From a virus: DNA of 50,657 bases. The notes under the pieces were generated by a model that worked only from the letters and a program-made list of their open reading frames with translations, was not told the DNA's origin and ran no database searches. Shown piece by piece: positions 10,447 to 34,279 of this stretch. The stretch spans positions 1 through 50,657 of the IMG/VR virus record IMGVR_UViG_3300042010_000112, one strand, 5' to 3'. The position numbers and the translations under genes were made by a program. The stretch's first letter is position 1. Each line of letters begins with the position of its first letter.

Positions 10447-10455
10447 AACAAATCC

Positions 10456-11151
10456 TTAGTTGACGTATTGTTTCTTATTCACTGTATCCAACAGATCAAT
10501 ACGTGCTTGAATCTTATTTAAAATTTGTTTATTTTGTCGTTCAGTCAGACGTTGGTCTTTTACATAGGCCTTAGTCGCTGGAACGTAATAATCAAATTCA
10601 TGGCTGACAGTGTCACAGTGATTCGAGGCTATGACAAAACATTCCAGTGAAGTCATGCTTTTGTCTAGCAGTGGATTAACACCATCAACTGCTGCACGCC
10701 CGGAACCCAGATGCATGGGTAGTTCAGTGCTGCTATTGATGTGGCTACCATTGGAGGTGATAACTGTACCTTCCCCATCCTCAGTGACAACCATCATGGA
10801 CGTTGCACCATTGAACACACGTCGTGCACTATTTGGCCGTATATTAACTTCGACTCTGGTATAAGCGTCAAGGTCAACACCAGCTGCCAGTGCATTCAAC
10901 AGTTCGCTGGTATTACCCACCGACCCGGCAAATGAGACCACACTGATTTTCTTGCCATTAAATGTGGCATTCTCAGGAAAGATGAGTTTACTAACGTCAT
11001 TGTAATAAACATCAACTCCCTTAGCGGCTCTACGGAAATCGACATAGCCAGATTTCTTAACCGGCTTACGGCCGATGGTATTAGTGCCGATAGTCTGACG
11101 CATGAGCTTGTCTGCGATTAACGTTTTTCCATCATAGACAATGTACGTCAT
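10456..11151 (-). CDS. HslV/proteasome-like Ntn-hydrolase fold protein
   Basis: A 231-residue protein. The start MTYIVYDGKTLIADKLMR resembles the opening strands of HslV or proteasome beta-type proteins (a Thr followed by DG..L..D), and several phages carry related proteins. ISVVSFAGSVGNTSELLNAL at about 68-87 fits the conserved Gly-rich turn and following helix, and HLGSGRAAVDG near 146-156 fits the GSG motif late in the family. If Thr2 is exposed by Met removal it could be the N-terminal nucleophile. No HslU-like ATPase lies nearby. A structural comparison would be needed for certainty; the C-terminal 50 residues are charged and lie outside the core. Confidence 0.5.
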   Translation of the reverse strand: MTYIVYDGKTLIADKLMRQTIGTNTIGRKPVKKSGYVDFRRAAKGVDVYYNDVSKLIFPENATFNGKKISVVSFAGSVGNTSELLNALAAGVDLDAYTRVEVNIRPNSARRVFNGATSMMVVTEDGEGTVITSNGSHINSSTELPMHLGSGRAAVDGVNPLLDKSMTSLECFVIASNHCDTVSHEFDYYVPATKAYVKDQRLTERQNKQILNKIQARIDLLDTVNKKQYVN

Positions 11152-13759: not shown

Positions 13760-13836
13760 GATGCATAAACCTTTTGGACATTTGGGAATTCATTGATTGC
13801 TGAGACATTTTGCTCACCAGATAATAAAGCGTAGTA

Positions 13837-14508
13837 TTAATCTACAGCTTTGAAGTTAAGGTTCACCCCGTAAACGTTGGCATCGATATAAGCTTGACGC
13901 TTTTCCCATTCTTCATCACGGTCTTTGAACGTGGTAATGAACGAGATATCGAACCCGCGTTGGTTCAGGATGTCCGATGCTTGATCCGTAACGAAGTCAC
14001 ACAGCTTGGCGTTACGAGAACCACCAGCCATGTTTACCAGACGAACATAGAAGCTACTGAGAATAGTAGACATCGCCGTATCAGCCTGGCGGTTAGTTAC
14101 AACGAAGTAAGCATGGGTAGCACGATGACGTACAACATACAACGAACCCGCACCAGTCTTATCGATCTGTTTGCGAGAGGCCAGCAGGTTTGCTTCGTAA
14201 AGCTCGTTTTCCAATTCTTGTGCAGAGAAGCGGACTGGCTGGGTCAGAAACCACAGCTCCAGTTCAGCTCCACGGGCTTTGGCTTTCTTAACAACATCAG
14301 CAGTCGCTTGAGTTTTGCTGTGAAACGCAGTGATAACACCAGCAAAGTTCTTGGTCTCACCCAACCAGACTTCACCAGTGTCGCCAATCAAGATTGCAAA
14401 GAACCCACCTTTGCAAGACTTAGGTGCGGTGCGTTGTTTCGTGAAATCCGCCATGTAACGGCGCAGGATGCCACGGGAAATATCACGATTCGACTTAGCT
14501 TGGGACAC
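13837..14508 (-). CDS. Hypothetical protein, weak GIY-YIG-like features
   Basis: A 223-residue protein starting at GTG with AGGAGT seven bases upstream. The longer ORF runs through a promoter element and is rejected. Residues 35-60 (GGFFAILIGDTGEVWLGETKNF) and the later E-containing helix LENELYEANLLASRKQID have the layout of a GIY-YIG nuclease (strand, turn, V-x-x-G, distant Glu), but the GIY and YIG triplets are not intact, so this is only a lead. The gene directly follows a TATATTAC element at 14543-14550 and heads its transcript, so it is probably an early gene. Confidence 0.6.
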   Translation of the reverse strand: MSQAKSNRDISRGILRRYMADFTKQRTAPKSCKGGFFAILIGDTGEVWLGETKNFAGVITAFHSKTQATADVVKKAKARGAELELWFLTQPVRFSAQELENELYEANLLASRKQIDKTGAGSLYVVRHRATHAYFVVTNRQADTAMSTILSSFYVRLVNMAGGSRNAKLCDFVTDQASDILNQRGFDISFITTFKDRDEEWEKRQAYIDANVYGVNLNFKAVD

Positions 14509-21182: not shown

Positions 21183-21354
21183 GTTGCACTTGATCCTTAG
21201 TAACGTAAAAGTCAACCCCTGCAGCGTTCTTGACGTTGAGGGTATCGCCCAGGTCTTCCAGCAGTTCCAAAGCATCACCTTTGTGTGCCAAGGTACAACC
21301 GCCTTCCATCTCTCCAAAAGAGAACTTGATGTCTTCTTTAGCTGTTAATGTCAT
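21175..21354 (-). CDS. Small SH3-like protein
   Basis: A 59-residue protein, MTLTAKEDIKFSFG at the start, followed by KGDALELLEDLGDTLNV and FYVTKDQVQ. The order strand, KGD turn, strand, DxGDTL turn, strand is typical of small SH3-like barrel proteins in phages. AAGGATC ribosome site upstream inside the previous gene. Confidence 0.6.
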   Translation of the reverse strand: MTLTAKEDIKFSFGEMEGGCTLAHKGDALELLEDLGDTLNVKNAAGVDFYVTKDQVQHG

Positions 21355-21685
21355 TCGCCCAGAGATCCTTGTTAAAACCGCCAGTGTTGTGCTCGACACC
21401 CGACTTGGAAATCAGCATTTCGATTTCCGCATGGATGTCGGCCAGTTGGTAGATCAAATCAGCACGGCGCAGTTTCTCCGCAGAGAAGCCAGCAACGCGT
21501 TCCGCTTGGAATGCCAGATGGAAAATGGATTCAGCGGTTTGGCCAGTGGTATCGATACCTACCCGACTGATGATGCGCACAGTCTTCAGGTAAGTGAGGG
21601 TATGGATATTCTTGTTCAGATAATCCACTTCCAGATCGATACCGTAAACCTGACTGATGTATTCTTGAATGTTATCAAATTGCAT
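21338..21685 (-). CDS. Hypothetical protein with C-terminal INS signature
   Basis: A 115-residue mostly helical protein. Starts in a TAATG overlap with the upstream gene. It ends FNKDLWANDINS. The aromatic residue followed by a few residues and (I/V)NS at the very end recurs in six other proteins (3' ends at 29346, 29758, 32568, 32867, 33716, 33986). No family recognised. Confidence 0.65.
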   Translation of the reverse strand: MQFDNIQEYISQVYGIDLEVDYLNKNIHTLTYLKTVRIISRVGIDTTGQTAESIFHLAFQAERVAGFSAEKLRRADLIYQLADIHAEIEMLISKSGVEHNTGGFNKDLWANDINS

Positions 21686-21969
21686 TATTTGTACTCGTTG
21701 AAGGTGTCTTCTAGGTCGTTGGGATTTACAGAGCCGACTTCACCGAAGTTGTCGACATTAGAACAAACAAACAAATCGCCAGGTCGAAGATCATCGGGAT
21801 GTTCGATCTTGATCTGGTCGCCTTCGTTTGCATACGGGATGTCATGATGTTGGCCGTTGCGATCCAAGATAGTGATGAAGATATCACGGGCAGCGGTTAG
21901 AACCATTCCCGGTTCTACTTTGGCAGCCGCGATTCCACATACAGCTACGCGCAGTAGAGTACCGATCAT
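21685..21969 (-). CDS. Hypothetical barrel-like protein
   Basis: A 94-residue protein. GMVLTAARDIFITILD, then ANEGDQIKIEHPDDLRPGDLFVC gives a small beta-barrel pattern similar to the 59-residue protein downstream. The N-terminal MIGTLLRVAVCGIAAAKV is mildly hydrophobic but short for a membrane helix. GGAGAC ribosome site. It heads its group. Confidence 0.6.
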   Translation of the reverse strand: MIGTLLRVAVCGIAAAKVEPGMVLTAARDIFITILDRNGQHHDIPYANEGDQIKIEHPDDLRPGDLFVCSNVDNFGEVGSVNPNDLEDTFNEYK

Positions 21970-22064
21970 GTTTTGTCTCCTTAGTATGTTGTTGCTAAGT
22001 TGTTATTTGCTACTCCCATGTCTAAGGAGTAATGTAAAGCTGTAATTTTTTGCAACATAAAAGA

Positions 22065-22078
22065 GTCCCCGAAGGGAC
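22065..22078 (-). terminator. TTCG hairpin terminator
   Basis: GTCCC, loop TTCG on the minus strand, GGGAC, then TCTTTTATG and six T shortly after. Confidence 0.7.
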
Positions 22079-22083
22079 CCCAT

Positions 22084-22545
22084 TTAGTCGAACTGCAATT
22101 TCAAACCAACAACCGGACTTTCCCGGTCAACGTGGATGGTACAGTAGCCAGTAGTCGGATCAAGCACGAGGTGGAAACCCCAACGCAACCCACACAACTT
22201 AGTCACATGACCAATTTCAATCTTTGCCTTGCCTTTGCTGACATAGGCTGGATCTTGCAGAACCGTCGGTGCCATCTTGGTGATGTTGTGCACTTGCAGG
22301 TTATCGCCGCGGTCGATGTAAGCAATTGCTTTTACCGACAACGTTTTGGACTTTCCATTGTTCTGACACAACGCGTACAGGTCAACCGGTTCATCACCAG
22401 TTACTTTAACGTAACCAGTTTCAACAATATCTCCACTCGGCAGACTTACTCGCTGAGGCATGGATTGTTGATGTTGAACGAAAAGATGACCGTTGGTGTT
22501 TCGTTGCAGTACAGGGAATTGTCCCGGACTAAGTTTTTCTGACAT
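22084..22545 (-). CDS. Hypothetical protein
   Basis: A 153-residue soluble protein starting MSEKLSPGQFPVLQRN with GAGGAA upstream. Strand-rich; VSLPSGDIVETGYVKVTGDE and GRVTK-like segments. Three Cys are spread (ALCQN, KLCGL, GYCTI). Its first 100 bp are overlapped by a small membrane gene in another frame. Not recognised. Confidence 0.65.
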   Translation of the reverse strand: MSEKLSPGQFPVLQRNTNGHLFVQHQQSMPQRVSLPSGDIVETGYVKVTGDEPVDLYALCQNNGKSKTLSVKAIAYIDRGDNLQVHNITKMAPTVLQDPAYVSKGKAKIEIGHVTKLCGLRWGFHLVLDPTTGYCTIHVDRESPVVGLKLQFD

Positions 22546-22640
22546 GCGATGTTCCTCACGAACGTTGACGATACGACGATACCGAGTGTCATTACGACAC
22601 CTAAGAGGAATGTGATCTCGCTGAGTAGCGGGGCATTCAC
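22446..22640 (-). CDS. Small membrane protein overlapping its neighbour
   Basis: A 64-residue protein with a GTG start after GTGAGGTAAA, and one membrane helix EITFLLGVVMTLGIVVSSTFV. It alone covers the 105 bp between two genes and then runs 100 bp into the start of the 153-residue gene in a different frame. Overlap of this size is unusual here; the C-terminal half may be tolerated rather than functional. Confidence 0.45.
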   Translation of the reverse strand: MNAPLLSEITFLLGVVMTLGIVVSSTFVRNIACQKNLVRDNSLYCNETPTVIFSFNINNPCLSE

Positions 22641-22650
22641 TTTACCTCAC

Positions 22651-23064
22651 TTACGCTTTGCTCCATTTAAGCTTTGCGATCGGCTTAGAAAGATTGGTTT
22701 GTTCAAAGCGTGTAATACGCTGACCTACCATTCTGATTTGCAGCCGGAAGAACAAGATCTCTTCAGAGCTTCGTAGGATTGGGTTCAGTAATGCAGCATC
22801 CCCCGGCGTATGGTATCGCACGACACCGTTAGTGATCGTGATATAGAAGTCATTCAATCCAGCATTAAGCTTCTTACCACCATCCTCAGCGGTAAGCTTA
22901 TGGTTTTCAACAACACGTTGATTGCCATACATCGTGGTAATGTCGACAGAATCGAAGTTCATTACCAGCACAGGTTTGCTGAGCCATTTAAGCAAGCACC
23001 ACAAACCTACAAATGCTCCAAATACAAGCAGAGCCAATTTAGTTGCATCAACCTCAAACATCAT
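22651..23064 (-). CDS. Membrane-anchored hypothetical protein
   Basis: A 137-residue protein with one N-terminal helix (LALLVFGAFVGLWCLLKWL). The rest is strand-rich (FYITITNGVVRYH), ending in a basic segment. GAGGAGGC lies directly before ATGATG; either Met could be used. It overlaps the upstream stop. Not recognised. Confidence 0.65.
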   Translation of the reverse strand: MMFEVDATKLALLVFGAFVGLWCLLKWLSKPVLVMNFDSVDITTMYGNQRVVENHKLTAEDGGKKLNAGLNDFYITITNGVVRYHTPGDAALLNPILRSSEEILFFRLQIRMVGQRITRFEQTNLSKPIAKLKWSKA

Positions 23065-23333
23065 GCCTCCTCAACGTACGCCTTAGTTGCTTTTATAGTG
23101 TTCGCTACGGAGTGACCTTTCGGTATTTCTAGTTCCAAAAGATCTTCTCCTGTAGCTAGACTTCGTACGCTTTCCAACGTTCCATCCAGACCGATATTAA
23201 ACTCTACCGCTCCAGATGGGTGAACACCAAGTGAGCGCCAAGATACCAAATCCGAATCAATAATGAAGTGCCGCAATTTACCTAAGAATTCAGTAACCCA
23301 CACATTGCCGCATTTGATCAACTTGACGCCCAC
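23061..23333 (-). CDS. Hypothetical protein, GTG start
   Basis: A 90-residue protein beginning (GTG) MGVKLIKCGNVWVTEFLG. TAGGAG is 7-9 bases upstream. The longer frame overlaps the previous gene and has no ribosome site. Strand-rich; not recognised. Confidence 0.6.
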   Translation of the reverse strand: MGVKLIKCGNVWVTEFLGKLRHFIIDSDLVSWRSLGVHPSGAVEFNIGLDGTLESVRSLATGEDLLELEIPKGHSVANTIKATKAYVEEA

Positions 23334-23349
23334 GATTGCCGCTCCTATG

Positions 23350-23775
23350 TTATTCGTGTTTTGCCATTTCGTCACGCAAGAGGTCACCCAATGTACGTGC
23401 TGGCTTTTTCTTTACTATAAGATCACCGAACTCAAGTTCTTTTGCCACAGTTTCGAGTTCTTTCAGATCAGTCAAAACAGTCTCAAACATCTGCTTGCGC
23501 CCGGTCATAACAGAGACCGGACCAGATGCAGCATTCCCTTCTTCCAGAAGCGCAATGGCCACAGTGTAGTCATTGATTTCTTTTTGAATCATCTTGGTGG
23601 TATAGCCACCACCCCAACGGAAACGCAGGTTCATGCCACCAACCCGTGATTCCGGAAAACGCTTCAGCAACGCACCGAAGTGTTCTTGTGGAACGTAGAA
23701 GCCAAAAGCACGATACATCGCAACGATGTTTTTGAAATCGGCTTTTGGTGGGAGGCTATAATTCAACAGATCCAT
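23350..23775 (-). CDS. Hypothetical helical protein
   Basis: A 141-residue protein, MDLLNYSLPPKADFKN at the start, mostly helical with FYVPQEHFGALLKRFPESR and a charged C-terminus. Rich in Lys, Glu and Leu after residue 100, possibly coiled coil. Not recognised. Confidence 0.65.
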   Translation of the reverse strand: MDLLNYSLPPKADFKNIVAMYRAFGFYVPQEHFGALLKRFPESRVGGMNLRFRWGGGYTTKMIQKEINDYTVAIALLEEGNAASGPVSVMTGRKQMFETVLTDLKELETVAKELEFGDLIVKKKPARTLGDLLRDEMAKHE

Positions 23776-23778
23776 CGT

Positions 23779-24210
23779 TTAATCCTTAGGCACGAATGCT
23801 TTGTAGTGCTTCATTTTGTAAAGCATCGGTGTGAACTCACGACCAAACCGGTGCTTGTAGAGAGGGTTCTTCAAATCACAGTTATCATTCATCCAAGCCA
23901 ATGCACGCTCCTGAATGTCCTGGATAGATCTGCCCATTACCAATACGTGTGCAGTCCTATATTGGTATTTGGCTTCAGCATTCCAAGCTTCGTTAGCGAC
24001 ACACACGGCTACTTCGAATACACCGTAACCACCAAAGCCATCGTACTGGCAGTTTTGCCAAGTAAGATCTTGAGGTTCGATGATCAGAAGATCACTGTAC
24101 GTATAAGCTGTGCGAATACGGATATCCGACATACTGGTCTTGCTTTCAATCTCATCCAAGTGGTATTCTTGGGAGATCACATAACGCCGTAGATCACGCA
24201 GTTCCTGCAT
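23779..24210 (-). CDS. Hypothetical protein
   Basis: A 143-residue protein. The ATG at 24210 lies nine bases after AAAGGA; two in-frame starts a few codons earlier are too close to it. Aromatic-rich with YDGFGGYGVFEVAVCVANEAW. Overlaps the upstream gene by 17 bases. Not recognised. Confidence 0.6.
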   Translation of the reverse strand: MQELRDLRRYVISQEYHLDEIESKTSMSDIRIRTAYTYSDLLIIEPQDLTWQNCQYDGFGGYGVFEVAVCVANEAWNAEAKYQYRTAHVLVMGRSIQDIQERALAWMNDNCDLKNPLYKHRFGREFTPMLYKMKHYKAFVPKD

Positions 24211-24931
24211 GTGCTTCATTCCTTTCACGGAGATCTTTCAACATGGCGATACCAGCCGCATCCCACAAGTTGAAAGCGCAGATGGTAGCCGAGTAATGCA
24301 ACACATCGGAAGTATGAGGGTTGGCACGAGAAGCATGGACGTTAACGATTTCTTCGTGTTCTTCAATCGCGGTGATTTGGAACCCAGCAGCCCGTAGACG
24401 AGTCAAACCGTCATAGACCATAACCAGTTCTTCTTCTACCATGTTATCGGTGTAGCGAGAGATCTGTGCCAGCATATCTTCCCACGTGATGTAACCAACA
24501 CGACCAGTCGATACTTGAGTGGTGTTGATCGGCCACGGCAAGAAACACGACGCATAGGCATCATAGAGCTCATCACGCTTATGCAGTGATTTACGTTTAC
24601 GTTCTACATCAGCATGGGTTTCAGCACGTTGTACAACTTTGAATGGCGTGCAAGCATTGCCATTCTCAGTAATACCATGATAACCGATCTCATCACGAGC
24701 ATTACCCATCATTTCGCTGTTAGCCAAACCTTGAGCAAACTGTTCAGCTTCTTTAGGGCTGTCAAAACGAATCACCCGAGAATCCAGCGTATTGAAACGA
24801 GTTACATGCCGGTCCTGCTCCCAGAAATGTTCATGCATCCCCAGTGAACCAAACTCGTTCACATAAGCGCGGGAACGCATTGAGTTTTCACTACGAATCG
24901 GAGTATCGATGTAAACTACACATTGAGTCAT
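24194..24931 (-). CDS. Hypothetical protein
   Basis: A 245-residue soluble protein, MTQCVVYIDTPIRSENS at the start. A mixed N-terminal part with RVIRFDSPKEAEQFAQGL (a typical strand-helix) and a helical C-terminal part. HYSATICAFNLWDAAGIAML near the end is mildly hydrophobic but not a clear membrane helix. No catalytic motif is recognised. Confidence 0.65.
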   Translation of the reverse strand: MTQCVVYIDTPIRSENSMRSRAYVNEFGSLGMHEHFWEQDRHVTRFNTLDSRVIRFDSPKEAEQFAQGLANSEMMGNARDEIGYHGITENGNACTPFKVVQRAETHADVERKRKSLHKRDELYDAYASCFLPWPINTTQVSTGRVGYITWEDMLAQISRYTDNMVEEELVMVYDGLTRLRAAGFQITAIEEHEEIVNVHASRANPHTSDVLHYSATICAFNLWDAAGIAMLKDLRERNEAHAGTA

Positions 24932-24933
24932 TC

Positions 24934-25158
24934 TTAAAGTACCTTGTTATTTTCTTTATCAAACAGCACGTTAACGCTGAAGAAGCTAGATACGGTGAAC
25001 CGGTGTGGCCAACCGAGTGGTTTTGGATCAGGTGTGACGGTGTCATCAATGACAAAGCCCACCACGTTATTTTCAACCCTTACCAGACGATCCGGCATGT
25101 AAACTTTAGGGCCGAACTTCGGGCACGTATCATACACACCGTCAGCTAGATTGTGCAT
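24934..25158 (-). CDS. Small hypothetical protein
   Basis: A 74-residue protein [16 protein letters not shown], strand-rich, with [20 protein letters not shown] and FSVNVLF. It overlaps the end of cca by 13 bases, with AAAGG inside cca as ribosome site. Not recognised. Confidence 0.6.
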
Positions 25159-26390
25159 TGAGGTATACCTTTCTTGTAAGCTTTCAAAGCCATCAGTCTT
25201 GCTAACCTGAGTGCTTTACCTAGGTCTGGACCTTTGTACCCTTTTTCAATCAGTGGCTGTGTTTCCACAAGGCGCACTGTGTTAGCTGCACAACGCATGT
25301 ACTCAGCTTGTGGGTATGCACGATGTTCCAAACCATCTCGACCCCTGGCATCCATCTCACATGCGCGGATGAAATCCTCGAATCGTTGTGGCCTGCGATA
25401 TATGTCAAAGCTTTGCAACAACTCCAACAATTTCTTTGGCGTTAGTTCCATAGCCCGATGACAATGGGTGTGGTATTGACACACCAGCGATGCTAATTGC
25501 TGGCAATCCTTCGGCACTTTAAATCGAGCATTGACATCATTAACTAATGGCACCCCCGACTTTTCATGCTTCAGATGTTGTGGCCATTCCTCTTTAGGAG
25601 TTACACCTTTACCCAGATCATGCAACAAACATGCCCAACGAATCGGTAACGATTGCTGAAACAATGATGCCTGTCGCAATACACTCAAGATATGTAAGCC
25701 AGTACAGATCTCTGGATGATGTGCCGCAGGCTGTGGTACACCAAACAACGCATCAACCTCTGGTAGCAATACCTTTAGCGCACCACAATCCCGTAACACT
25801 TCGATAAAGACATGTGGGTCATCTTCCATTAACGCACGAGATATTTCTTTCCAACTGCGTTCAGCGGCTAATGTTTTCAGTTCACCAGATTCACTGAGTT
25901 GACGCATCAACTCTAATGTTTCAGGTGCCACTGTAAACCCCAAGCATGCATAACGGGCTGCAAAGCGAGCTACCCGTAATACACGCAATGGATCTTCAGC
26001 AAAAGCCGGAGATACATGACGCAGCACTCGATCTTGCAAATCACGCAGACCATTGTAAGGATCAATCAGGTTTAGTTGATCATCCTCAGCAATAGCATTA
26101 ATCGTCAAATCACGACGACTAAGATCTTCTTCCAACGTTACATCAGAACTGGCATGGAAAGTAAAGCCACCATAACCAGTTCCACTTTTACGTTCGGTAC
26201 GAGCCAGCGCGTATTCTTCACTCGTCTCCGGATGTAAGAACACAGGGAAATCAGTACCGACTGGTTTGTAGCCTTGCTCTAACATTTCCTCAGTAGTAGA
26301 ACCAACCACTACCCAGTCTACGTCAGTTACAGGGAAACCCAGCAATCGGTCACGTACGGCGCCGCCGACTTTATAAACTGTTGGTTTCAT
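25146..26390 (-). CDS. cca: CCA-adding tRNA nucleotidyltransferase (multifunctional Cca, HD type)
   Basis: A 414-residue protein that follows the E. coli Cca sequence over nearly its full length. It adds and repairs the 3'-CCA end of tRNAs without a template. The nucleotidyltransferase domain has GGAVRD (9-14), the metal-binding D23 and D25 in [12 protein letters not shown] (63-70), RRDLTINA (92-99) and the EDPLRVLR motif (132-139). The HD phosphohydrolase domain typical of the gamma/betaproteobacterial enzyme has CHPE-like HHPE (224-227) and HDLGKG (257-262), and would give 2',3'-cyclic phosphatase and phosphodiesterase activity. The tRNAs in this window already encode CCA, so its role is more likely tRNA end repair. 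Probably acquired from a host. Confidence 0.96.
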
Positions 26391-26689
26391 TTGCAGTGCA
26401 CCATTTGTTCTTTGAAGTCTTCTCGCTCCCGATGGAACAATTGACCTTTTTCAGCATCCCAATAAACGAACAACCGTTCATCACGACGCCAGCCAGCACC
26501 CATAGACTGACCCAGGTATTTGTAACGGGTTTCAGGGCGCAATGCATAAACCACTTCGCCCTTGAATAATTGGTTCGCTGCATAGCGAGCCTTTATGTTC
26601 CGTTTCACACATTCCCGGTGCAATGGACCTTCGTACCGATCTGGGTTAGCATCAACCCAGTCGAGTTCCCATTGTAATGCGTTACTCAT
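26387..26689 (-). CDS. Hypothetical protein upstream of cca
   Basis: A 100-residue protein [19 protein letters not shown], basic and Tyr/Arg-rich, with [25 protein letters not shown]. It overlaps cca by four bases (ATGA) and the previous gene by eight, so all three are coupled. Not recognised; a helper role for Cca is speculative. Confidence 0.65.
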
Positions 26690-27383
26690 GACCGAAGGAC
26701 TTCATCACGTGAGCGATCTTGAAAGCCATCAAGTGATCCATGACCTTGTGGAGTTCTTCATCATTGGTTGGAAGGAACCGAAGTTCTTCGCCAAGATTCC
26801 AGATGTAAGGAACCCCAGTATCTTCCTCGATCATTTCACAAACAGTCAGAGAACCTTTCTCATGCCATTCGTAAGGGTCCAAATGGATTTCCTTACGTTG
26901 CAGAGTCATGAACTCTTTCTTGAGCTCGATCATTTCAATCACGTACAATGCATCATGACCGTCTTTCGGCAGATAGGTCATGAAACCTTCTTCTTTACGA
27001 CATGGTTGGTAATGACCTTCCATGTAGTTGTGAATGGTGTCTACTTCTGCTGCTGCTTTGGTATCATGTGGATTGAACTGTACAGTAATAGGCAATGGAT
27101 TCCCATTGTTATCCAACAGGTTCAGGCGACGTTTCAACAGATGGCGGAATTTAACCCAGCTCCCCTGCCAGAACTCGATGAATACCCATTCACCAGTCGG
27201 TGCATCGGAACCACCTTGAAAGAAAGCCCCCGAACCTTCACGAGCTTTGTAGTATTCACAGGCATAACGGTTGCTGTTCATGAAGCGGGAGAAGATTTGA
27301 TGTACCGACTCGGTAACATGTTTACCGTGGATGTTAATGCCAGGCCCTTTACCGGGTTGTGGACGAACTGGGATAGCGATCAT
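26682..27383 (-). CDS. Hypothetical protein
   Basis: A 233-residue soluble protein. GPGINIHGKHVTES near the start, then FIEFWQGSWVKFRHLLKRR, helices with many Glu and Lys, and a His-rich C-terminus. No family recognised. It overlaps both neighbours by 4-8 bases. Confidence 0.65.
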   Translation of the reverse strand: MIAIPVRPQPGKGPGINIHGKHVTESVHQIFSRFMNSNRYACEYYKAREGSGAFFQGGSDAPTGEWVFIEFWQGSWVKFRHLLKRRLNLLDNNGNPLPITVQFNPHDTKAAAEVDTIHNYMEGHYQPCRKEEGFMTYLPKDGHDALYVIEMIELKKEFMTLQRKEIHLDPYEWHEKGSLTVCEMIEEDTGVPYIWNLGEELRFLPTNDEELHKVMDHLMAFKIAHVMKSFGHE

Positions 27384-27676
27384 GCGACTTGCTCCTTAAA
27401 TTGGTACAGACGTGAGTTTGCAGAAGGACTAGCGTTCAAACGTTTACGGCTCATAATGCGTACGGGCCGTACCCATGTATCAGAAACCTTTAGTAGCTTG
27501 CGCATCTCGTTCATCGGCATACCCATCAGGTCATCAATGACTTGCTTGGCATCAGCACACGAGTTGAAAGTAACCGCATTCCGTTCTTGTGGGGTAACGG
27601 TACTGCGACCACTGTCTTTGCGAGTGAGGTACACATGATCCCCACCCCGGATAATCTCAAGTACGTATTCAGACAT
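27380..27676 (-). CDS. Small hypothetical protein
   Basis: A 98-residue protein MSEYVLEIIRGGDHVYLT, then a region TFNSCADAKQVIDDLMGMPM that has a strand-helix pattern, and a basic C-terminal part (RPVRIMSRKRLN). Not recognised. Confidence 0.6.
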   Translation of the reverse strand: MSEYVLEIIRGGDHVYLTRKDSGRSTVTPQERNAVTFNSCADAKQVIDDLMGMPMNEMRKLLKVSDTWVRPVRIMSRKRLNASPSANSRLYQFKEQVA

Positions 27677-28194
27677 CAGCTAAGCTCCACTGCATGTAAA
27701 GTGTACCAGCCTTTGAAGAATTTGTAGTAAGTCCGCTCTTCTTGTATCTCTACAACAACCGGACCATTCTTCCAGTTATGAACTGCCTCCATCCACGACA
27801 TCTTTTTGACTTCGTAATGGATGTAGGTATCGCGAGCAGCACGATACGTGTCGAATACCATAGCAAACCGAGGATATTGATTCAGTCCGTTGGTTAGATG
27901 CGACAGATCAGCCGGAGGACCAATAACTGCTGCATTCAGAAGCGCCTGACGCTCTTCAATGTTTTCGCAATGCTGAGCTAGGAACGTGTGCTTCCAACGT
28001 TTTTCCAGCCCGCTCCAATCTTGATAACGGAAGCGGATCATGTAACGACGATCCCCTCCTTTACCCGGAGCATTGTTCAAACGAGCATCTTGCCAAGCCG
28101 CACCACAGACGACTAAGCAAATCAAAGCTGCTACCGTAACCATTCCCATTAAGAACAGTTGAATGCCATGGGCATTTTCAATAAACGCTACCAT
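27676..28194 (-). CDS. Membrane-anchored hypothetical protein
   Basis: A 172-residue protein with one N-terminal helix (GIQLFLMGMVTVAALICLVVCG) and a basic, Trp/Tyr/Arg-rich soluble part of about 130 residues (YMIRFRYQDWSGLEKRWKH). The family is not known. Confidence 0.65.
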   Translation of the reverse strand: MVAFIENAHGIQLFLMGMVTVAALICLVVCGAAWQDARLNNAPGKGGDRRYMIRFRYQDWSGLEKRWKHTFLAQHCENIEERQALLNAAVIGPPADLSHLTNGLNQYPRFAMVFDTYRAARDTYIHYEVKKMSWMEAVHNWKNGPVVVEIQEERTYYKFFKGWYTLHAVELS

Positions 28195-28226
28195 TACTTT
28201 TCCTTGTTTCGGACAAAAAAGAAAAC

Positions 28227-28242
28227 GGGCCGGAATTGGCCC
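28227..28242 (-). terminator. Hairpin terminator
   Basis: GGGCC/GGCCC with a 6-nt loop; on the minus strand followed by GTTTTCTTTTTTG. Confidence 0.6.
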
Positions 28243-28251
28243 ATCTCTTAA

Positions 28252-28614
28252 TCACACCGGGTCAATAACAATACCACCCATAAAACTAATGGAGGCACGT
28301 TTATTGATTTCCGATGTATTAAAGATGAGTTTGTTAAAGCGTTCGGCTGTAAAGCGTTTAATAGGAGTGTCAATTCGAAAGGGTGCATTCTCGAATCCTT
28401 CACCTGCCCATACTACACGATACATCCAAATGTCATCACGGATATCCAGACTGATCTTAATCAGTTCACGGTCTGGTTTATCGCCGAACAATTCAGCGAG
28501 AGGGGATTCATCACCAAAGAAGATGTGAAACTCACGTACACTCAGCGACAACGATTTTGCAAACACTGCAGCTCTGCTCTTCTGTGCAACAGAAATCTGT
28601 TCTTTGCTAGCCAT
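28252..28614 (-). CDS. Hypothetical protein, single-gene early unit
   Basis: A 120-residue protein MASKEQISVAQKSRAAVF. The ATG at 28614 has GGAAG upstream; a TTG-started extension is rejected. Contains ELIKISLDIRDDIWMYRVV and SISFMGGIVIDPV. It is alone between a TATATTAC element (28648-28655) and the hairpin at 28227-28242, so it is a one-gene transcript. Confidence 0.65.
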   Translation of the reverse strand: MASKEQISVAQKSRAAVFAKSLSLSVREFHIFFGDESPLAELFGDKPDRELIKISLDIRDDIWMYRVVWAGEGFENAPFRIDTPIKRFTAERFNKLIFNTSEINKRASISFMGGIVIDPV

Positions 28615-28647
28615 AATGTATTCTTCCAAGTCTTATAACTCACAAAA

Positions 28648-28655
28648 GTAATATA
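28648..28655 (-). promoter_or_regulatory. TATATTAC promoter element
   Basis: Exact TATATTAC on the minus strand, 34 bp before the start of the 120-residue gene, with AAACTATTTAAAAGCC just upstream. Confidence 0.55.
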
Positions 28656-28712
28656 GGCTTTTAAATAGTTTAAATCAACAGCTTTCTAAAACAAAAAAAA
28701 AGAAGGCATAAA

Positions 28713-28730
28713 GCTTCCCCGAAGGGAAGC
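28713..28730 (-). terminator. TTCG hairpin terminator
   Basis: GCTTCCC, loop TTCG, GGGAAGC on the minus strand, then TTTATGCC and a run of eight or more T. Strong terminator directly after the BIG2 gene. Confidence 0.85.
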
Positions 28731-28737
28731 GATATGT

Positions 28738-29286
28738 TTAGGCTGTAACGGTAACAGTCTTGGTGATGCTGTACAGGCCAGCTTCAGCAATAGTGATAAC
28801 CGAGGTACCGGCTTCAACACCAGTAACTTCACCAGTTGCAGATACGGTGGCCTTAGCCGGAGTACCCGAAGTGAAGGTTGGTGCAGCAGTGTACGGCTGA
28901 CCGTTCTTAGTGACGGTAACAACCAGTTGCACTTTAGCGCCAACAGCGACGCTAGGTGTAGCAGGAGTTGCAGTAGCAACGTAAACATCAGGTGGAGTAA
29001 CTTTCGCTTTAACAGAGAAAGCAACAACCAGACGCTTAGGTTCCTGGACGACTTCTACGTCTTTCCAGCCAGCAGCTTCAACAGCCGCTTTCAGGGAAGC
29101 TTGTGCAGAGTTAGTCAAAACTTGACCGTCAACGATAACACGCAGCGATGGGTTTTCGATCTCATCATTGGTGACGTAGTCAACAGTACGTTGTTCGGTG
29201 AGGCGGGCATTGATTGCAGCTTCAATCGGGGCAACGTCAAGTGCAACACGTGCAGCAATAGCATCAGCTTTGTTCAGAATAGCCAT
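28738..29286 (-). CDS. BIG2 (Ig-like) domain protein, likely virion component
   Basis: A 182-residue protein. The N-terminal 95 residues are Ala-rich and mixed. Residues about 105-182 form a bacterial Ig-like (BIG_2) domain: PSVAVGAKVQLVVTVTKNG, then SGTPAKATVSATGEVTGVEAG and TSVITI. Such domains decorate phage capsids, tails or fibres and bind surfaces weakly. An AAGGAG ribosome site, bias to frequently used codons and a strong terminator suggest high expression as a structural protein. It is followed by its own terminator, a one-gene unit. Confidence 0.8.
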   Translation of the reverse strand: MAILNKADAIAARVALDVAPIEAAINARLTEQRTVDYVTNDEIENPSLRVIVDGQVLTNSAQASLKAAVEAAGWKDVEVVQEPKRLVVAFSVKAKVTPPDVYVATATPATPSVAVGAKVQLVVTVTKNGQPYTAAPTFTSGTPAKATVSATGEVTGVEAGTSVITIAEAGLYSITKTVTVTA

Positions 29287-29345
29287 ATCGGGCTCCTTGT
29301 GATCACAGAAATCTACGGATGTAGATACATAAGATCACACAGAGC

Positions 29346-29750
29346 CTAGCTATTAATGTCAGCGCAATGGCTGTCCCAGTATGTTACTAAACCAAAATCA
29401 ATGACCTCATGAGGGGGATTGATGGACTCTCCTCCTTCATCGAGCAACTGCATGTTGCACTCATCGATTGTGTCTAATACCATCCTGACACCTATCCGCA
29501 TGCATTCAATTGCATCCGGTGTTACGCTAGCCATTTCTGTTAATCCATCTAGCCGATCTTCGATGTGCTGAACAAACAACCCTTGCGACGCTCGAGTTCC
29601 AGCAATCTTAGCGTTCTCTTCACCCTTGGTTCCGACTATCTGCAAGATATGTGCATCGATATCCTGCGTCAAGTCAATACCGTCTAGCTTAGAACTCGCT
29701 ATGAAGTTACGCAACTTGTTTCTTTCAAAAGCACATTCAGCTTCGGGCAT
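29346..29750 (-). CDS. Hypothetical protein with C-terminal INS signature
   Basis: A 134-residue helical protein beginning MPEAECAFERNKLRNFI after GAGGTTGTC. Paralogue of the upstream gene: MRIGVRMVLDTIDECNMQLLD aligns with FRSGMNRGVECVFNAIDTKN of that protein. Both end in an aromatic-x-(I)NS tail (here YWDSHCADINS). No known family. Confidence 0.65.
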   Translation of the reverse strand: MPEAECAFERNKLRNFIASSKLDGIDLTQDIDAHILQIVGTKGEENAKIAGTRASQGLFVQHIEDRLDGLTEMASVTPDAIECMRIGVRMVLDTIDECNMQLLDEGGESINPPHEVIDFGLVTYWDSHCADINS

Positions 29751-29757
29751 GACAACC

Positions 29758-30111
29758 TCAACTGTTGATATAGCTAGACCACCGATCAATCATCGGAATC
29801 ATATCCGGACCATGATCAGTAATCTGTACGTTGAGCATTCGATCATCGCCATCAATCAGCAACATGTTCTTGGTGTCGATGGCGTTGAACACACACTCAA
29901 CACCACGGTTCATACCAGACCGGAAGGCCTGAGACATTGTAGAACCTTTATCGAACTTAGGTGGCAGCTGATCCAACACGTTAGCCTGAACTTCAGCAAA
30001 GAAGAAACCACGTGCCATCTCGGATTCTTCTTCTAGTTCTCTTTCCAGGTCGGCAACTATGGAGTAGGCTTTTTCAAGCTCTTCCTTAGTTACCTTTGAA
30101 CGGTTATTCAC
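29758..30111 (-). CDS. Hypothetical protein with C-terminal INS signature, GTG start
   Basis: A 117-residue protein starting at GTG eight bases after GAGGA, overlapping the upstream stop. The first 45 residues are charged and coiled-coil-like (EELEKAYSIVADLERELEEE). The later half is paralogous to the downstream 134-residue protein, and it ends IDRWSSYINS. Confidence 0.65.
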   Translation of the reverse strand: MNNRSKVTKEELEKAYSIVADLERELEEESEMARGFFFAEVQANVLDQLPPKFDKGSTMSQAFRSGMNRGVECVFNAIDTKNMLLIDGDDRMLNVQITDHGPDMIPMIDRWSSYINS

Positions 30112-30568
30112 AAGCAGAGTCCTCAATGATGGGTTCGATCTCGGTAACACTGATACGGTTGTAGATTACTTGCAACGCAACCTGACCGCCTTCTAGTTGT
30201 TCCAGATCCATCCCGAAGTCGTATGCCACCAAATCCTTTTCATGGGACTCGTCAATGCCATCCAGCGAACTAGCGCTCCGGGCAAAGGTATCTACTACAG
30301 AGAACCGACCGAGCTTTTCAGCGTGGTCGTATTCCAGACAGATTGGGGTTTCGAGTTTTGCAACAACATCAATGCCATGCTTCTTGTAACGGAAGCCAGT
30401 CAACCAGGTTGGTTTTGGCGTATGCACAACCTCAGGGAAATCAGCATCGACCCACTGCTTCAAGCCACCACCGGTAGCATTGATGAGCCATTCCCACGTA
30501 GCGTAGGCAATGAGTCCGATAATCACGAGTGCAACAAGGCCGAGGGTAGCAGCAGGAGCGGTGAACAT
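30104..30568 (-). CDS. Membrane-anchored hypothetical protein
   Basis: A 154-residue protein with one N-terminal helix (TLGLVALVIIGLIAYATWEWL). The soluble part is strand-rich and acidic, with KHGIDVVAKLETPICLEYDH and VALQVIYNRISVTEIEPI. AAGGAAT ribosome site. Not recognised. Confidence 0.65.
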   Translation of the reverse strand: MFTAPAATLGLVALVIIGLIAYATWEWLINATGGGLKQWVDADFPEVVHTPKPTWLTGFRYKKHGIDVVAKLETPICLEYDHAEKLGRFSVVDTFARSASSLDGIDESHEKDLVAYDFGMDLEQLEGGQVALQVIYNRISVTEIEPIIEDSACE

Positions 30569-30583
30569 TTTTATTCCTTGGGG

Positions 30584-30691
30584 TCAGCTTAGACCAGTTT
30601 GAGAGACGAGGGCGATGTACAGTGCTCCAGCTAGAGCCAACCCCAATGGGTTACGATACTCGTAGAAGAAGGCAATAAGCGCGTGTTTCAT
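30584..30691 (-). CDS. Very small membrane protein
   Basis: A 35-residue protein MKHALIAFFYEYRNPLG followed by LALAGALYIALVSQTG, one membrane helix. It fills the gap between two genes; the ribosome site is weak (GGA about ten bases upstream). Confidence 0.45.
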   Translation of the reverse strand: MKHALIAFFYEYRNPLGLALAGALYIALVSQTGLS

Positions 30692-30738
30692 TTTAGCAAT
30701 CCAGAGGGGTTGTATACATACTGATACGCCGCCAGTAT

Positions 30739-31017
30739 TTATTCCTCAGAACGCTTATGCATGATTACATCTCGAAATGTTTTGGGGTCATCCATTTCCC
30801 GAGAGTATGCAAATTCATGCCACTTATCATAGATCTCCATGGGGAGATGATTAGCTTCGGCCATTGTTCGAAATCCAAGAGTTATGCCCAAGATGATACC
30901 ATGGCGAGTACCCTCGTGGTAATATATACAAGCAGTTGATGGATCGTTAGCTTCTGCGTATGATGGTCCCTGAGATTCCACGATCATGTTGTGGAACAGC
31001 TCTTGGTAATCAGCCAT
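30739..31017 (-). CDS. Hypothetical helical protein
   Basis: A 92-residue protein beginning MADYQELFHNMIVESQG; the ATG overlaps the upstream stop (TATGGCTGA). HEGTRHGIILGITLGFRTMAE resembles the central helix of the paralogous proteins at 29346 and 29758, but it lacks the INS end (it ends HKRSEE). Possibly a distant family member. Confidence 0.6.
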   Translation of the reverse strand: MADYQELFHNMIVESQGPSYAEANDPSTACIYYHEGTRHGIILGITLGFRTMAEANHLPMEIYDKWHEFAYSREMDDPKTFRDVIMHKRSEE

Positions 31018-31243
31018 AGTGCAGGTCAACATGTTTTTCGAAGCACGTAAGCATCACGTCATCTTTGATGTCATCTGCCTTTTCCATAGTGAGTGGTTCA
31101 CCGGCCTTAGCAAAGTGACTGAAATAACCAATGGTCAATCGAGAACCTTCAATGAGCTGGGTAAGCGTATGTGCTTCGCCTGCCGAGTTATCATCCAAGT
31201 ATTCAACCAAGCCACCAAAGAACTTATCTGGATCAGGAATCAT
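31010..31243 (-). CDS. Hypothetical helical protein
   Basis: A 77-residue protein beginning MIPDPDKFFGGLVEYLDD with GAGGTTGTA upstream; the longer frame passes through the terminator and is rejected. Helical and acidic; LIEGSRLTIGYFSHFAKAG resembles the central helix of neighbouring proteins. Not recognised. Confidence 0.6.
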   Translation of the reverse strand: MIPDPDKFFGGLVEYLDDNSAGEAHTLTQLIEGSRLTIGYFSHFAKAGEPLTMEKADDIKDDVMLTCFEKHVDLHYG

Positions 31244-31272
31244 TACAACCTCACAAAAGAAAACAACAGAAA

Positions 31273-31292
31273 GCCTACCCCGAAGGGTAGGC
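31273..31292 (-). terminator. TTCG hairpin terminator after SPFH gene
   Basis: GCCTACCC, loop TTCG, GGGTAGGC on the minus strand, then TTTCTGTTGTTTTCTTTTG. Confidence 0.75.
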
Positions 31293-31309
31293 GTTCTATT
31301 CAAGCAGAG

Positions 31310-32173
31310 TTACTTGTTGAAGATACGGTTCGAAAGACCAGCGCTGCCCATAGCCTCGTAAGGTACGAAAACAGCAGCTTTGTTTTCCGCCATTTGACCT
31401 TGAACGTCCAGAGCTTTGTAAGCCAGCAACATTGGGCTCAGACCATCAGCAGTGATGGCGTTAGAGTCACGCAGGGTCTTGGCACGGGTCAGCTCGATAT
31501 CACGGTCCAGTTGCGCAAGAGCCAGAGCGTTGGTACGCTTGGTGGTCTCGATCGCTTGCTGGTTGGTTTCAGTTTCGATAGCCAGACGACGTTCCGATTG
31601 CTTCTCGATAGCAACGGTGATAACATCAGGGTATTTCAAGTTACCCAGAGTAACGTTGGAAACTTCCAGAGGAGAGTTAGCCATTGCCTTCACCAGACGC
31701 TCACTGAGATCTTTGGTGATGTTATCGAAGTTAGCACCAACGTCTTCGGTCTTATACTTGCCCACAACCGAACGGGATACCGATTGCACAACGTCTAGGC
31801 CATACACACCGTAGACTTGCTGCAGAGTAACGCGTTTGTCTTTCACTTGGATGTCGTTGAACATCTGGTTCAGGACTTTCTCGTTACCGCCGATGCGAGT
31901 ACGGAAGCGAACATCGAAGGTCAGGTCGAGCTTGTCGTCCATCTTCACGGTGATGGTTTCAGCAACGGTACGGGTACCAGTTTCCAGCAGGACCAGTTCA
32001 TCACGGCCCCACAGGGTTTCTTTACCCGGTTCCAGGATTTCTTTGTTGTAGCCAGTAGTGGTCAGAACCTTACCTTTGAAAGCAGGAGGAATGACTTCGA
32101 ACGAGCAACCTTGCAGCGCAACGACAGCGATCATGGCGAGTGCAGCGGATTTGATTACAGACAACAGTTTCAT
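31310..32173 (-). CDS. SPFH/prohibitin-like lipoprotein
   Basis: A 287-residue protein with a lipoprotein signal (MKLLSVIKSAALAMIAVVAL, lipobox LQGC with C23). The SPFH or Band 7 domain spans about residues 30-190, with TVKMDDKLDLTFDVRFR, VYGLDVVQSVSRSVVGKYK and SPLEVSNVTLGNLKYPDVI, followed by the long Ala/Glu/Arg coiled coil KQSERRLAIETETNQQAIET that drives oligomerisation in prohibitins and flotillins. Such proteins form large rings on membranes and restrain FtsH or organise membrane areas. Here it would be in the outer leaflet of the inner membrane or on the outer membrane, facing the periplasm. The gene before it encodes a two-helix membrane protein and could be its partner. Probably highly expressed. 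SPFH genes occur in some large phages; their role is unsettled. Confidence 0.85.
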   Translation of the reverse strand: MKLLSVIKSAALAMIAVVALQGCSFEVIPPAFKGKVLTTTGYNKEILEPGKETLWGRDELVLLETGTRTVAETITVKMDDKLDLTFDVRFRTRIGGNEKVLNQMFNDIQVKDKRVTLQQVYGVYGLDVVQSVSRSVVGKYKTEDVGANFDNITKDLSERLVKAMANSPLEVSNVTLGNLKYPDVITVAIEKQSERRLAIETETNQQAIETTKRTNALALAQLDRDIELTRAKTLRDSNAITADGLSPMLLAYKALDVQGQMAENKAAVFVPYEAMGSAGLSNRIFNK

Positions 32174-32213
32174 GCAACTTTTCCTTTTGAATTCGATTTG
32201 TGTGCAGCGTGGT

Positions 32214-32558
32214 TTACTTGTTCAGATTGCCAGCGTCAATTTCTTTACGCAGTGCAGCGGCAGCTTCTTTTGCAGATTGTGGAGAAGCAGTTTCATGCTT
32301 CACCGGAGTGCTTTTTTCAGTCAGCGTACCGACTTGATCAAAGCGTGCACGATCGCCTTCGGTGTTATGCACACCAACGTTAACGAACGTAAGCAGCCAG
32401 ACCACTGGCAGAATGAACGTCCAGACCCAACGAGTACGTGGAGTGATCCAGGCCATCCATTCAGCTTTGCTGCGGATCAACCAGGTGAGAAACACTGCGA
32501 GCACAATCAGGCCCATTACGGCACCGATGACACTACCTTGCCAATATACTGGAAACAT
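32214..32558 (-). CDS. Two-helix membrane protein upstream of SPFH gene
   Basis: A 114-residue protein with two membrane helices (SVIGAVMGLIVLAVFLTWLI and WTFILPVVWLLTFVNVGVHN) linked by a Trp/Arg-rich loop, and a charged Ala/Glu/Lys-rich tail of about 45 residues that could form a coiled coil. AAGGAAAACAG ribosome site. It is 40 bp from the SPFH lipoprotein and shares its transcript, so it is a good candidate partner. Confidence 0.7.
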   Translation of the reverse strand: MFPVYWQGSVIGAVMGLIVLAVFLTWLIRSKAEWMAWITPRTRWVWTFILPVVWLLTFVNVGVHNTEGDRARFDQVGTLTEKSTPVKHETASPQSAKEAAAALRKEIDAGNLNK

Positions 32559-32567
32559 CTGTTTTCC

Positions 32568-32867
32568 TTAGGAGTTAATTGAAGCGGTCCATTCGTCGGA
32601 CATCTGTTGATGCACGAGGTCATCAATAGTACCGTTTTGTGCATCAGCTACGGTGAAGAACCCGTGGGTATCAAACACCGACAGCGTTTGTCCTACTGTG
32701 CGATTGTAGAGCCCTTCCAATGCACCAAGAACACTTTCTTTGGTGAACGCTTCATTACCAGCGCCACCCTCGTCGACGCGTGCATCTTTGTATGCATCAC
32801 AAACGAGTTGATCACGATCCTGGCTAAGCTTATCCAACATGCCAGCTTCTTTCAGGGTGACGGCCAT
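32568..32867 (-). CDS. Hypothetical protein with C-terminal INS signature
   Basis: A 99-residue helical acidic protein. The ATG overlaps the upstream stop (TGATG); a TTG one codon earlier is possible. It ends MSDEWTASINS. Not recognised otherwise. Confidence 0.65.
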   Translation of the reverse strand: MAVTLKEAGMLDKLSQDRDQLVCDAYKDARVDEGGAGNEAFTKESVLGALEGLYNRTVGQTLSVFDTHGFFTVADAQNGTIDDLVHQQMSDEWTASINS

Positions 32868-33493
32868 CAAGAGTTAACTGCTTCTGACCAGGATTCGGTC
32901 AGTGCAGCGGACAGGCCTTGAACAGTAGAGATACCACCGGAAGCGAAGGCTTCTTCCAGGACGCTGACGGTACCAACGATTGCGGTATCGACAGCAGTAG
33001 CGACGGTGAGTTCGCCATTGGCAGCAGAGCGAACAGCGTTGATGGATGCCAGTACTACGGCATTGTTCTTATCAGTGGTGTTTCCGGTAGCAGCTTCAGT
33101 CACGACATGATTCCTTGTTTGAGTATCCCAGAGGTTCAGGTGAACACCCCAGAGTTCGGTATGGTTTGCAACCATAGCGACTTTGTTGTTGATTATGCAC
33201 GCGGTATCGGTAATGGCGTCTTGGACGGCACCACGGATTACTGCATGGTATTGCAGAGGCAAGTGATTTTTTGCACGGTCCACGATAATATCGCGTTGGC
33301 GTTTCAAACCATTTCGGAGTGGTTCCAGTGCATATGAAGGTTCTTCATAAGCAGTCCATGACATTTCACCGTCACGGGAAGGATGTGGAATACCTAGCTC
33401 ATTAAGCTCTTTGGCTATGTAGTAATCCAGGTTATGGTCATCATCCTCAGCACTCTCCCATACCTCTTCACTAACTAGGGGTTCCAGGGGCAA
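32867..33493 (-). CDS. Hypothetical protein with C-terminal VNS signature, probable TTG start
   Basis: A 208-residue protein. The reading frame has no ATG near its beginning; TTG at 33493 sits seven bases after GGAGG and is the best start (a GTG at 33541 lacks a ribosome site). First part is mixed and charged; from residue 110 it is Ala/Val/Thr-rich and helical (NAVVLASINAVRSAANGELT, VATAVDTAIVGTVSVLEEAF). It ends TESWSEAVNS. Length, composition and tail link it to the neighbouring INS proteins. Confidence 0.6.
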   Translation of the reverse strand: MPLEPLVSEEVWESAEDDDHNLDYYIAKELNELGIPHPSRDGEMSWTAYEEPSYALEPLRNGLKRQRDIIVDRAKNHLPLQYHAVIRGAVQDAITDTACIINNKVAMVANHTELWGVHLNLWDTQTRNHVVTEAATGNTTDKNNAVVLASINAVRSAANGELTVATAVDTAIVGTVSVLEEAFASGGISTVQGLSAALTESWSEAVNS

Positions 33494-33716
33494 AGAAATC
33501 CTCCAGTGATACTTTCTCCTCGGCTCGATGGATTGCACCAATTGCTTGGGTAATACGATCTTTTGTTCCGTGGAAAAGAATACCTGCTTTGGTTAGTGCA
33601 TCCAGCGTAGCTTCTACGCCAGGAGCCAGTCGTTCGAAATCATCTTCATCCAGAGATCGGCTCCAATCAATCAGTTCACGAGCCGCAACATCAATCTCGT
33701 TCTGACGATGGCCCAT
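33471..33716 (-). CDS. Hypothetical helical protein
   Basis: An 81-residue acidic helical protein MGHRQNEIDVAARELIDWS. The ATG overlaps the upstream stop as TAATG. It contains VEATLDALTKAGILFHGTKD and ITQAIGAIHRAEE, similar in type to its neighbours, but ends FFAPGTPS rather than INS. Confidence 0.6.
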   Translation of the reverse strand: MGHRQNEIDVAARELIDWSRSLDEDDFERLAPGVEATLDALTKAGILFHGTKDRITQAIGAIHRAEEKVSLEDFFAPGTPS

Positions 33717-33976
33717 TACGAATTGACTTCTTCGATGAAACGATCGGCAGCACCCATGAACTCGGTTGCGCAACCACCAGCCGATACTTCCAGGCAGAAA
33801 GCGTTCTCGTAGGTACGAGCGGTTTCAGCGATGGCGTGGATGATACCTTGCTCTTGCGGCATGGCTTCTGCTTCGATACGGATACCGACCAGACTGTCCA
33901 GAATTTCGCGTTGTTTGTTGTCGTTGGCTTCAGCTACGCCAGCTACTAGTTCATCAGCGTTTTCGATAGTGCTCAT
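33716..33976 (-). CDS. Hypothetical protein with C-terminal VNS signature
   Basis: An 86-residue acidic helical protein MSTIENADELVAGVAEAND, ending AADRFIEEVNS. AAGGACATGCA ribosome site. Shares the N-terminal MST and C-terminal tail with the next upstream gene, suggesting duplication. Confidence 0.65.
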   Translation of the reverse strand: MSTIENADELVAGVAEANDNKQREILDSLVGIRIEAEAMPQEQGIIHAIAETARTYENAFCLEVSAGGCATEFMGAADRFIEEVNS

Positions 33977-33985
33977 TGCATGTCC

Positions 33986-34279
33986 TTACGAATTGATTGC
34001 AGCGATGTATGCTTCCGATAACTCATCGTTATCAAAGAAGGGTTGGTCACCCAGTTTAACCCCTGGTGGTTCATGAGGGAAAATTTGGGCTTGTGACTCG
34101 ATGGCTTGAAGCGTCAACAGCGTGGTGTCTTGGATTGCCCCTTTAACCGCTACTGCTTGATCAATAGTAAAACCAAGATCTTGGTCATCGAGTTTGTCTT
34201 GAACTTGTTGGTTTGCATCAAGTAGATCAGCGAGCAGCTTTTCGCGGGCGTTGATCATACCAGTGGTGCGTGTGCTCAT
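33986..34279 (-). CDS. Hypothetical protein with C-terminal INS signature
   Basis: A 97-residue acidic helical protein MSTRTTGMINAREKLLADL, ending ELSEAYIAAINS. Its start overlaps the upstream stop (ATGA). A run of polar helices with TIDQAVAVKGAIQDTTLLTL resembles the core helix of the other INS proteins. Confidence 0.65.
   Translation of the reverse strand: MSTRTTGMINAREKLLADLLDANQQVQDKLDDQDLGFTIDQAVAVKGAIQDTTLLTLQAIESQAQIFPHEPPGVKLGDQPFFDNDELSEAYIAAINS

Follow-up and report, generated by a model that had tools for sequence, protein, structure and literature searches.

Short C-terminal docking or sorting motifs, which recur on otherwise unlike proteins and place hydrophobic residues close to the free carboxylate, are illustrated by the bacterial SSB C-terminal tip, the PDZ ligands and the peroxisomal signal PTS1. 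In nucleus-forming phages, protein import through PicA is reported to depend on surface residues of the folded cargo, and not on a terminal signal (PMC12908238). In this work, we analyzed a stretch of viral DNA of 50,657 nucleotides (positions 1 to 50,657 of the IMG/VR record IMGVR_UViG_3300042010_000112), hereafter the window, in which seven minus-strand genes encode small proteins whose extreme C-terminus carries an aromatic residue followed, after a short spacing, by Ile/Val-Asn-Ser. This end is a genuine C-terminal motif for which we found no earlier description, and we favor, with moderate confidence, its reading as a docking tag recognized by a single partner that the phage itself encodes.

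The window is a 50.7-kb fragment from a nucleus-forming (PhuZ/ChmA) jumbo phage of Pseudomonas, within the Psa21/D6 group. When 14 kb of it were compared with 50,697 phage records, the sole near DNA match was to Pseudomonas phage D6 (genome of 307 kb; 82.5% identity over 13% of the query), which has multisubunit RNA polymerase genes and a tubulin of the PhuZ type; in addition, ChmA homologues are encoded by D6 and the other genomes compared. All seven minus-strand open reading frames (ORFs) ending in [IV]NS listed in the original prediction are present, with unchanged positions and ends: gene A (33986..34279, 97 amino acids (aa), AYIAAINS), gene B (33716..33976, 86 aa, RFIEEVNS), gene C (32867..33493, 208 aa, SWSEAVNS; 224 aa if the ORF is taken to 33541), gene D (32568..32867, 99 aa, EWTASINS), gene E (29758..30111, 117 aa from a likely GTG at 30111, RWSSYINS; 130 aa if the ORF is taken to 30150), gene F (29346..29750, 134 aa from a likely ATG at 29750, or 147 aa from a TTG, YWDSHCADINS) and gene G (21338..21685, 115 aa, with a variable linker followed by LWANDINS). 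Six of them flank the gene of an SPFH/Band_7 lipoprotein on two sides, as had been noticed, and gene G lies 8 kb from these six. The encoded proteins are indeed acidic, with isoelectric points of 4.1-5.0 versus a median of 5.8 for the small genes of the window; the similar length ascribed to them was not borne out, as they range from 86 to 208 aa with their likely starts. No convincing Pfam match was obtained for the tailed proteins.

The Asn (AAC/AAT), Ser (AGY and TCN) and stop codons vary among the seven window genes, whose final codons are AAC AGC TAA, AAT AGC TAG, AAC AGT TGA, AAC TCC TAA, AAC TCT TGA and, in two of them, AAT TCG TAA; therefore, the tail is not a repeated DNA element, and selection acts on the protein. 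A DNA-level element overlapping the stop codons was ruled out, given the differing Asn and Ser codons and the unrelated sequence past the stop.

For a wider search, the motif was broadened to [YWF]-x(2-3)-[IV]-[NS]-[NST]-COOH, genes were called with our own caller in the window and in whole genomes, and the expectation was taken from the motif frequency at internal protein positions. The count of such ends, suggested in the original prediction for the whole proteome, gave 6 full motifs in the window versus 0.09 expected, the gene at 29346 being missed by the gene caller. Besides the window, 11 of 12 whole or partial genomes were enriched, with 5-11 full motifs versus 0.11-0.42 expected; whole-genome counts were 7 versus 0.26 in D6, 10 versus 0.32 in Psa21, and 10 versus 0.30 and 8 versus 0.31 in the metagenomic genomes G002 and G003, respectively. 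Phages PA1C, 201phi2-1, PhiPA3, Phabio (eleven full motifs) and Noxifer (150 of 278 kb covered) carry the motif too, at 12 to 80 times expectation, and the C-terminal motif was enriched over both internal positions and shuffles. The exception is phiKZ, with no enrichment (1 motif, in PHIKZ186, versus 0.35 expected). Among 88 tails outside the window, position -7 is mostly Tyr, Trp or Phe, position -6 is often Phe or Ala, and acidic residues or Ala predominate at positions -5 and -4; the final positions (Ile/Val, Asn/Ser, Ser/Asn/Thr) are set by the search pattern. Thus defined, the tagged set comprises about 5-12 small proteins in most of the Pseudomonas nucleus-forming jumbo phages examined, and the motif has so far been seen only in Pseudomonas nucleus-forming phages.

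For most of the seven window genes, orthologues were recognized in D6, Psa21, RVTF4 and the metagenomic genomes G001-G003. Absence of the tail from orthologues, the observation that the original prediction regarded as contrary to it, was not seen: every recognized orthologue of the Psa21 group ends in [IV]N[ST], Thr being accepted as the last residue in Psa21 and RVTF4. The [IV]NS end as first described consequently stands for the seven window genes and not across the family, where the last residue may be Thr or Asn and the second-last Ser. The YINS end of gene E is found in orthologues from seven genomes; homologues of gene D are present in D6, Psa21, G002 and G003, those of gene F in Psa21 and RVTF4, and the portion of gene C shared with RVTF4 and HPP-Temi corresponds to its last ~65 aa. 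The alignment of gene B is conserved throughout, hence it is uninformative regarding tail versus linker. For gene G, compared in seven genomes, identity amounts to 49% in the body, drops to 30-33% in the 25 alignment columns ahead of the end and reaches 100% in INS; in the alignments, the tail is retained as the linker before it diverges, most clearly in this gene.

The bodies that carry the tail were then compared with each other. The claim that they are diverged holds in part, as many are unlike, and several are paralogues: genes E and F, which had been called paralogues, still reach an hhalign probability of 88-90% when 8 residues are trimmed from the end, and genes B and C reach 83% under the same trimming; the Psa21 protein at 261780 is joined weakly as well. 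In contrast, gene G showed no homology to other tailed genes once its tail was cut (0.1-0.8% by hhalign). Tailless bodies fell into about 30 clusters by single-sequence comparison (E<1e-3), a figure that overstates the number of origins because such searches miss remote homology; the family phrog_11061, for instance, unites PHIKZ258 with the PA1C proteins at 21215 and 22083. At the sequence level, the motif sits on non-homologous bodies. The clearest case is the 201phi2-1 protein at 230892, whose body belongs to phrog_3849 (3e-31), a family present in some 80 further phage records, the majority from phages that infect E. coli, Salmonella and related bacteria. Its homologue in Salmonella phage S19cd (Felixounavirus) stops at 104 aa and carries no motif. 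The 201phi2-1, Viktualia and Phabio proteins share the phrog_3849 body and are extended by ~25 aa relative to the examined FelixO1-type homologue, ending in FFSEVSN, FFAEVST and FFDEINT, respectively. By comparison of sequences, this fusion is the clearest case for a portable tag, with the tail appended to a pre-existing family.

The tail is also present away from the clustered genes. The PHIKZ186 family (phrog_16459), whose gene lies near that of thymidylate kinase and is unlinked to the window cluster, keeps the motif in every complete genome examined, with the ends FANINS and close variants (Psa21 group), FEEVNT (PA1C), FFEDVNS (phiKZ), FEDVSN (201phi2-1 and Viktualia), FDEISN (PhiPA3), FDDINN (Noxifer) and FDDISS (Phabio). 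PHIKZ186 itself, an uncharacterized protein of the tailed set, is encoded at 200099-200503 of phiKZ (10099-10503 of the phiKZ stretch L166), and its antisense knockdown is among the strongest phiKZ hits, being scored +++ for plaques and +++ for ChmA (PMC12571901). The AlphaFold model of the family (mean pLDDT 81) displays an alpha/beta fold; its C-terminal part is helical, and the NINS end is loose. Foldseek gave no match below 0.001 in PDB, and in BFVD it retrieved members of the same family and weak matches, including one from Ralstonia phage RSF1. Importance for phage growth by knockdown and an unassigned alpha/beta fold make PHIKZ186 deserving of its own study. For gene E, the model (mean pLDDT 74) has a C-terminal helix reaching the end at low confidence, and Psa21 relatives were the sole Foldseek matches of note. 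In phiKZ, where tailed genes are otherwise nearly absent, PHIKZ258 (13822-14196 of the phiKZ stretch L019), a homologue of tailed proteins, ends in YFIFVNRG, the motif being kept up to VN and followed by RG, a naturally altered tail.

The terminal residues vary with the phage. In seven genomes, the last dipeptide was associated with the genome (mutual-information permutation p=5e-5; position -2, p=5e-5; position -1, p=6e-4), an association that within-genome paralogy may inflate. The unlinked PHIKZ186 orthologue mostly has the last two residues that prevail in the genome encoding it, as in 201phi2-1, where the VSN end is found on most other tailed proteins as well. Predictions recorded before reading the genomes (SN for PhiPA3, NN for Noxifer, SS for Phabio) held for PhiPA3 (SN in 4/5, SS in 1/5) and mostly for Noxifer (five NN, three NS). 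P. aeruginosa is the common host of phiKZ (NS), PhiPA3 (SN) and PA1C (NT); therefore, the host does not set the end, and the variation tracks phage lineage. A co-evolving phage-encoded partner is suggested as the simplest reading of these genome-specific ends.

Regarding location, the packaging into the virion contemplated in the original prediction was not supported by the proteins checked, PHIKZ186 and 201phi2-1 gp378. In the phiKZ record, PHIKZ186 bears no structural-protein note and a neighbor has one; in that of 201phi2-1, gp378 bears no virion mass-spectrometry note and other genes do. Proteins gp222, gp308 and gp313, matched by coordinates and accession to three of the five PhiPA3 tailed proteins, are among the RecA miniTurboID top 25, and gp222 is in the ChmA top 25 as well (PMC10643120). 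The overlap with the RecA list has a hypergeometric p=0.0024.

With the integration of these data, the tail would be a C-terminal short linear motif, usually borne on a short acidic terminal helix, with the aromatic residue and Ile/Val probably on one helix face, and the free carboxylate and two polar residues presumably recognized by the partner. A single, phage-encoded partner would read the tail and thereby dock different small proteins at one site. Binding to a common partner, already considered in the original prediction, is well supported as an interpretation by the unlike bodies, the appended tail, the divergent linkers and the dipeptide co-variation. More tentatively, the published proximity labelling would put the docking site within the phage nucleus or at its surface, in the vicinity of RecA/UvsX. 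A further extension, which we consider conceivable and short of probable, is a hitherto unknown C-terminal code of Pseudomonas nucleus-forming phages, in which an adaptor encoded by the phage, sitting at the nuclear RecA/replication site, uses a single tag to recruit fast-changing small effectors; tag and reader would co-evolve, leaving a lineage-specific dipeptide, and existing proteins would be recruited by gaining the tag.

Several observations weigh against a common docking tag and its proposed location. Some tailed genes are paralogues, therefore part of the sharing reflects descent, and gene families and tag are entwined. In phiKZ one tailed protein is left and the PHIKZ258 homologue ends in VNRG, and therefore the tag can be lost. 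The ends of Phabio are mixed (SS, NT, NN, NS, ST, SN), thus the SS prediction failed for this phage. The p-value of the RecA overlap rises to 0.03 with a background of 150 detectable proteins; the proximity of gp222, gp308 and gp313 consists of 1-2 detections per 3 trials, and the three are unnamed among the nuclear GFP fusions (PMC10643120). Their labelling could reflect abundance.

Descent could also be taken as the whole explanation, the tailed proteins being one ancient paralogous family derived from a helix-hairpin-helix ancestor by tandem duplication, with the tail as a constrained edge of the fold, such as a dimer interface. The tandem arrays, the B-C and E-F homology outside the tail and the members joined by phrog_11061 agree with this, as does the long helix, hairpin and C-terminal helix common to the PHIKZ186 and gene E models. 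However, gene G joins none of the others once trimmed and has its tail after a variable linker, the phrog_3849 body occurs in unrelated phages and is tailless where checked, and about 30 clusters persist at the threshold used; moreover, descent alone leaves unexplained the mostly genome-matching dipeptide of the unlinked PHIKZ186 orthologue, and we consider such a family rather unlikely as a full account. Alternatively, the tail could be a contact between the tailed proteins themselves, in self- or hetero-oligomers of a small-protein complex with no separate receptor. This would fit the clustering of the genes and equally predicts genome-specific co-variation, as the interface would be common to all members, and the single tailed gene of phiKZ would then encode a homo-oligomer; but the bodies are very unlike in length and sequence, which renders this option improbable.

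An import signal for the phage nucleus through PicA/Imp1 would account for the labelling of the three PhiPA3 proteins near nuclear RecA (PMC10643120). Yet the PicA pathway reportedly reads surface residues of its folded cargo and no terminal signal (PMC12908238), and the PhiPA3 proteins proven to be nuclear by GFP exclude its tailed proteins (PMC10643120), so that we assign very little credence to it. Chance or a compositional bias of C-termini would suit phiKZ alone, the unenriched genome; in the others, the Poisson P ranges from 6e-5 to 6e-13 and the motif is conserved across orthologues, and the counts refute this explanation practically completely. The docking tag remains our preferred reading.

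Among the neighboring features, the SPFH/Band_7 lipoprotein gene (31310..32173, minus strand; Pfam Band_7, 1.2e-13) lies in the middle of the cluster. It was considered as the partner of the tails; phiKZ and 201phi2-1 have tails and no SPFH gene, and therefore SPFH is not a required partner; binding of the tails to SPFH is not supported. No such tails were found in the stretches around SPFH in KPP10, RisingSun and Miami. Related SPFH proteins occur in 138 phage records, including 88-kb KPP10-type phages and Vibrio, Erwinia and Klebsiella jumbo phages, many at ~60% identity, and from these similarities the gene looks as if it moves between phages. A small protein with hydrophobic stretches (32214-32558, minus strand) precedes the SPFH gene, and similar-sized small genes also precede SPFH in KPP10, RisingSun and Miami; the small gene and SPFH may constitute a conserved pair. 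The C-terminus of ChmA, tried as a model for the tail, lacks the motif. Elsewhere in the window, a 414-aa ORF (25146-26390, minus strand) presumably resembles a bacterial CCA-adding tRNA nucleotidyltransferase. The D6 and Psa21 genes at the place matching 28738-29286 (minus strand) are annotated as 'major head protein'; the Pfam match of the window gene is the bacterial Ig-like domain Big_2 (1.4e-6), and on this basis the annotation seems doubtful.

For most genes of nucleus-forming phages no function has been assigned, and a sequence-readable end groups dozens of them, including PHIKZ186, into one testable system for which a common partner is predicted. A partner residing in the phage nucleus would make the tail a second rule of addressing, alongside PicA, and a partner located elsewhere would represent a new hub. 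The tail also offers a simple experimental handle, by deletion of three residues or by blocking the carboxylate, and C-terminal GFP or Flag fusions of tailed proteins may be inactive.

No description of a shared end was found in the literature on PHIKZ186, PHIKZ258 and the C-terminal motif, and the statement that no named family has this end holds within the literature and databases searched. Among described groups, phrog_16459 and phrog_11061 are alike in being unnamed families that include tailed proteins; they differ in being function-unknown families covering none of the seven window proteins, none of which matched either family by profile comparison. The PicA/Imp1 system of Chimalliviridae operates in the same phages and shows species-dependent cargo recognition, as the tail would, and differs in its reported use of folded-surface residues (PMC12908238). 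In comparison with the SSB tip, the PDZ ligands and PTS1, although the sequence of the tail matches none of the three, its last residues are polar and its receptor is putative, the arrangement is alike: unlike proteins have a few C-terminal residues in common, with hydrophobic ones close to the carboxylate.

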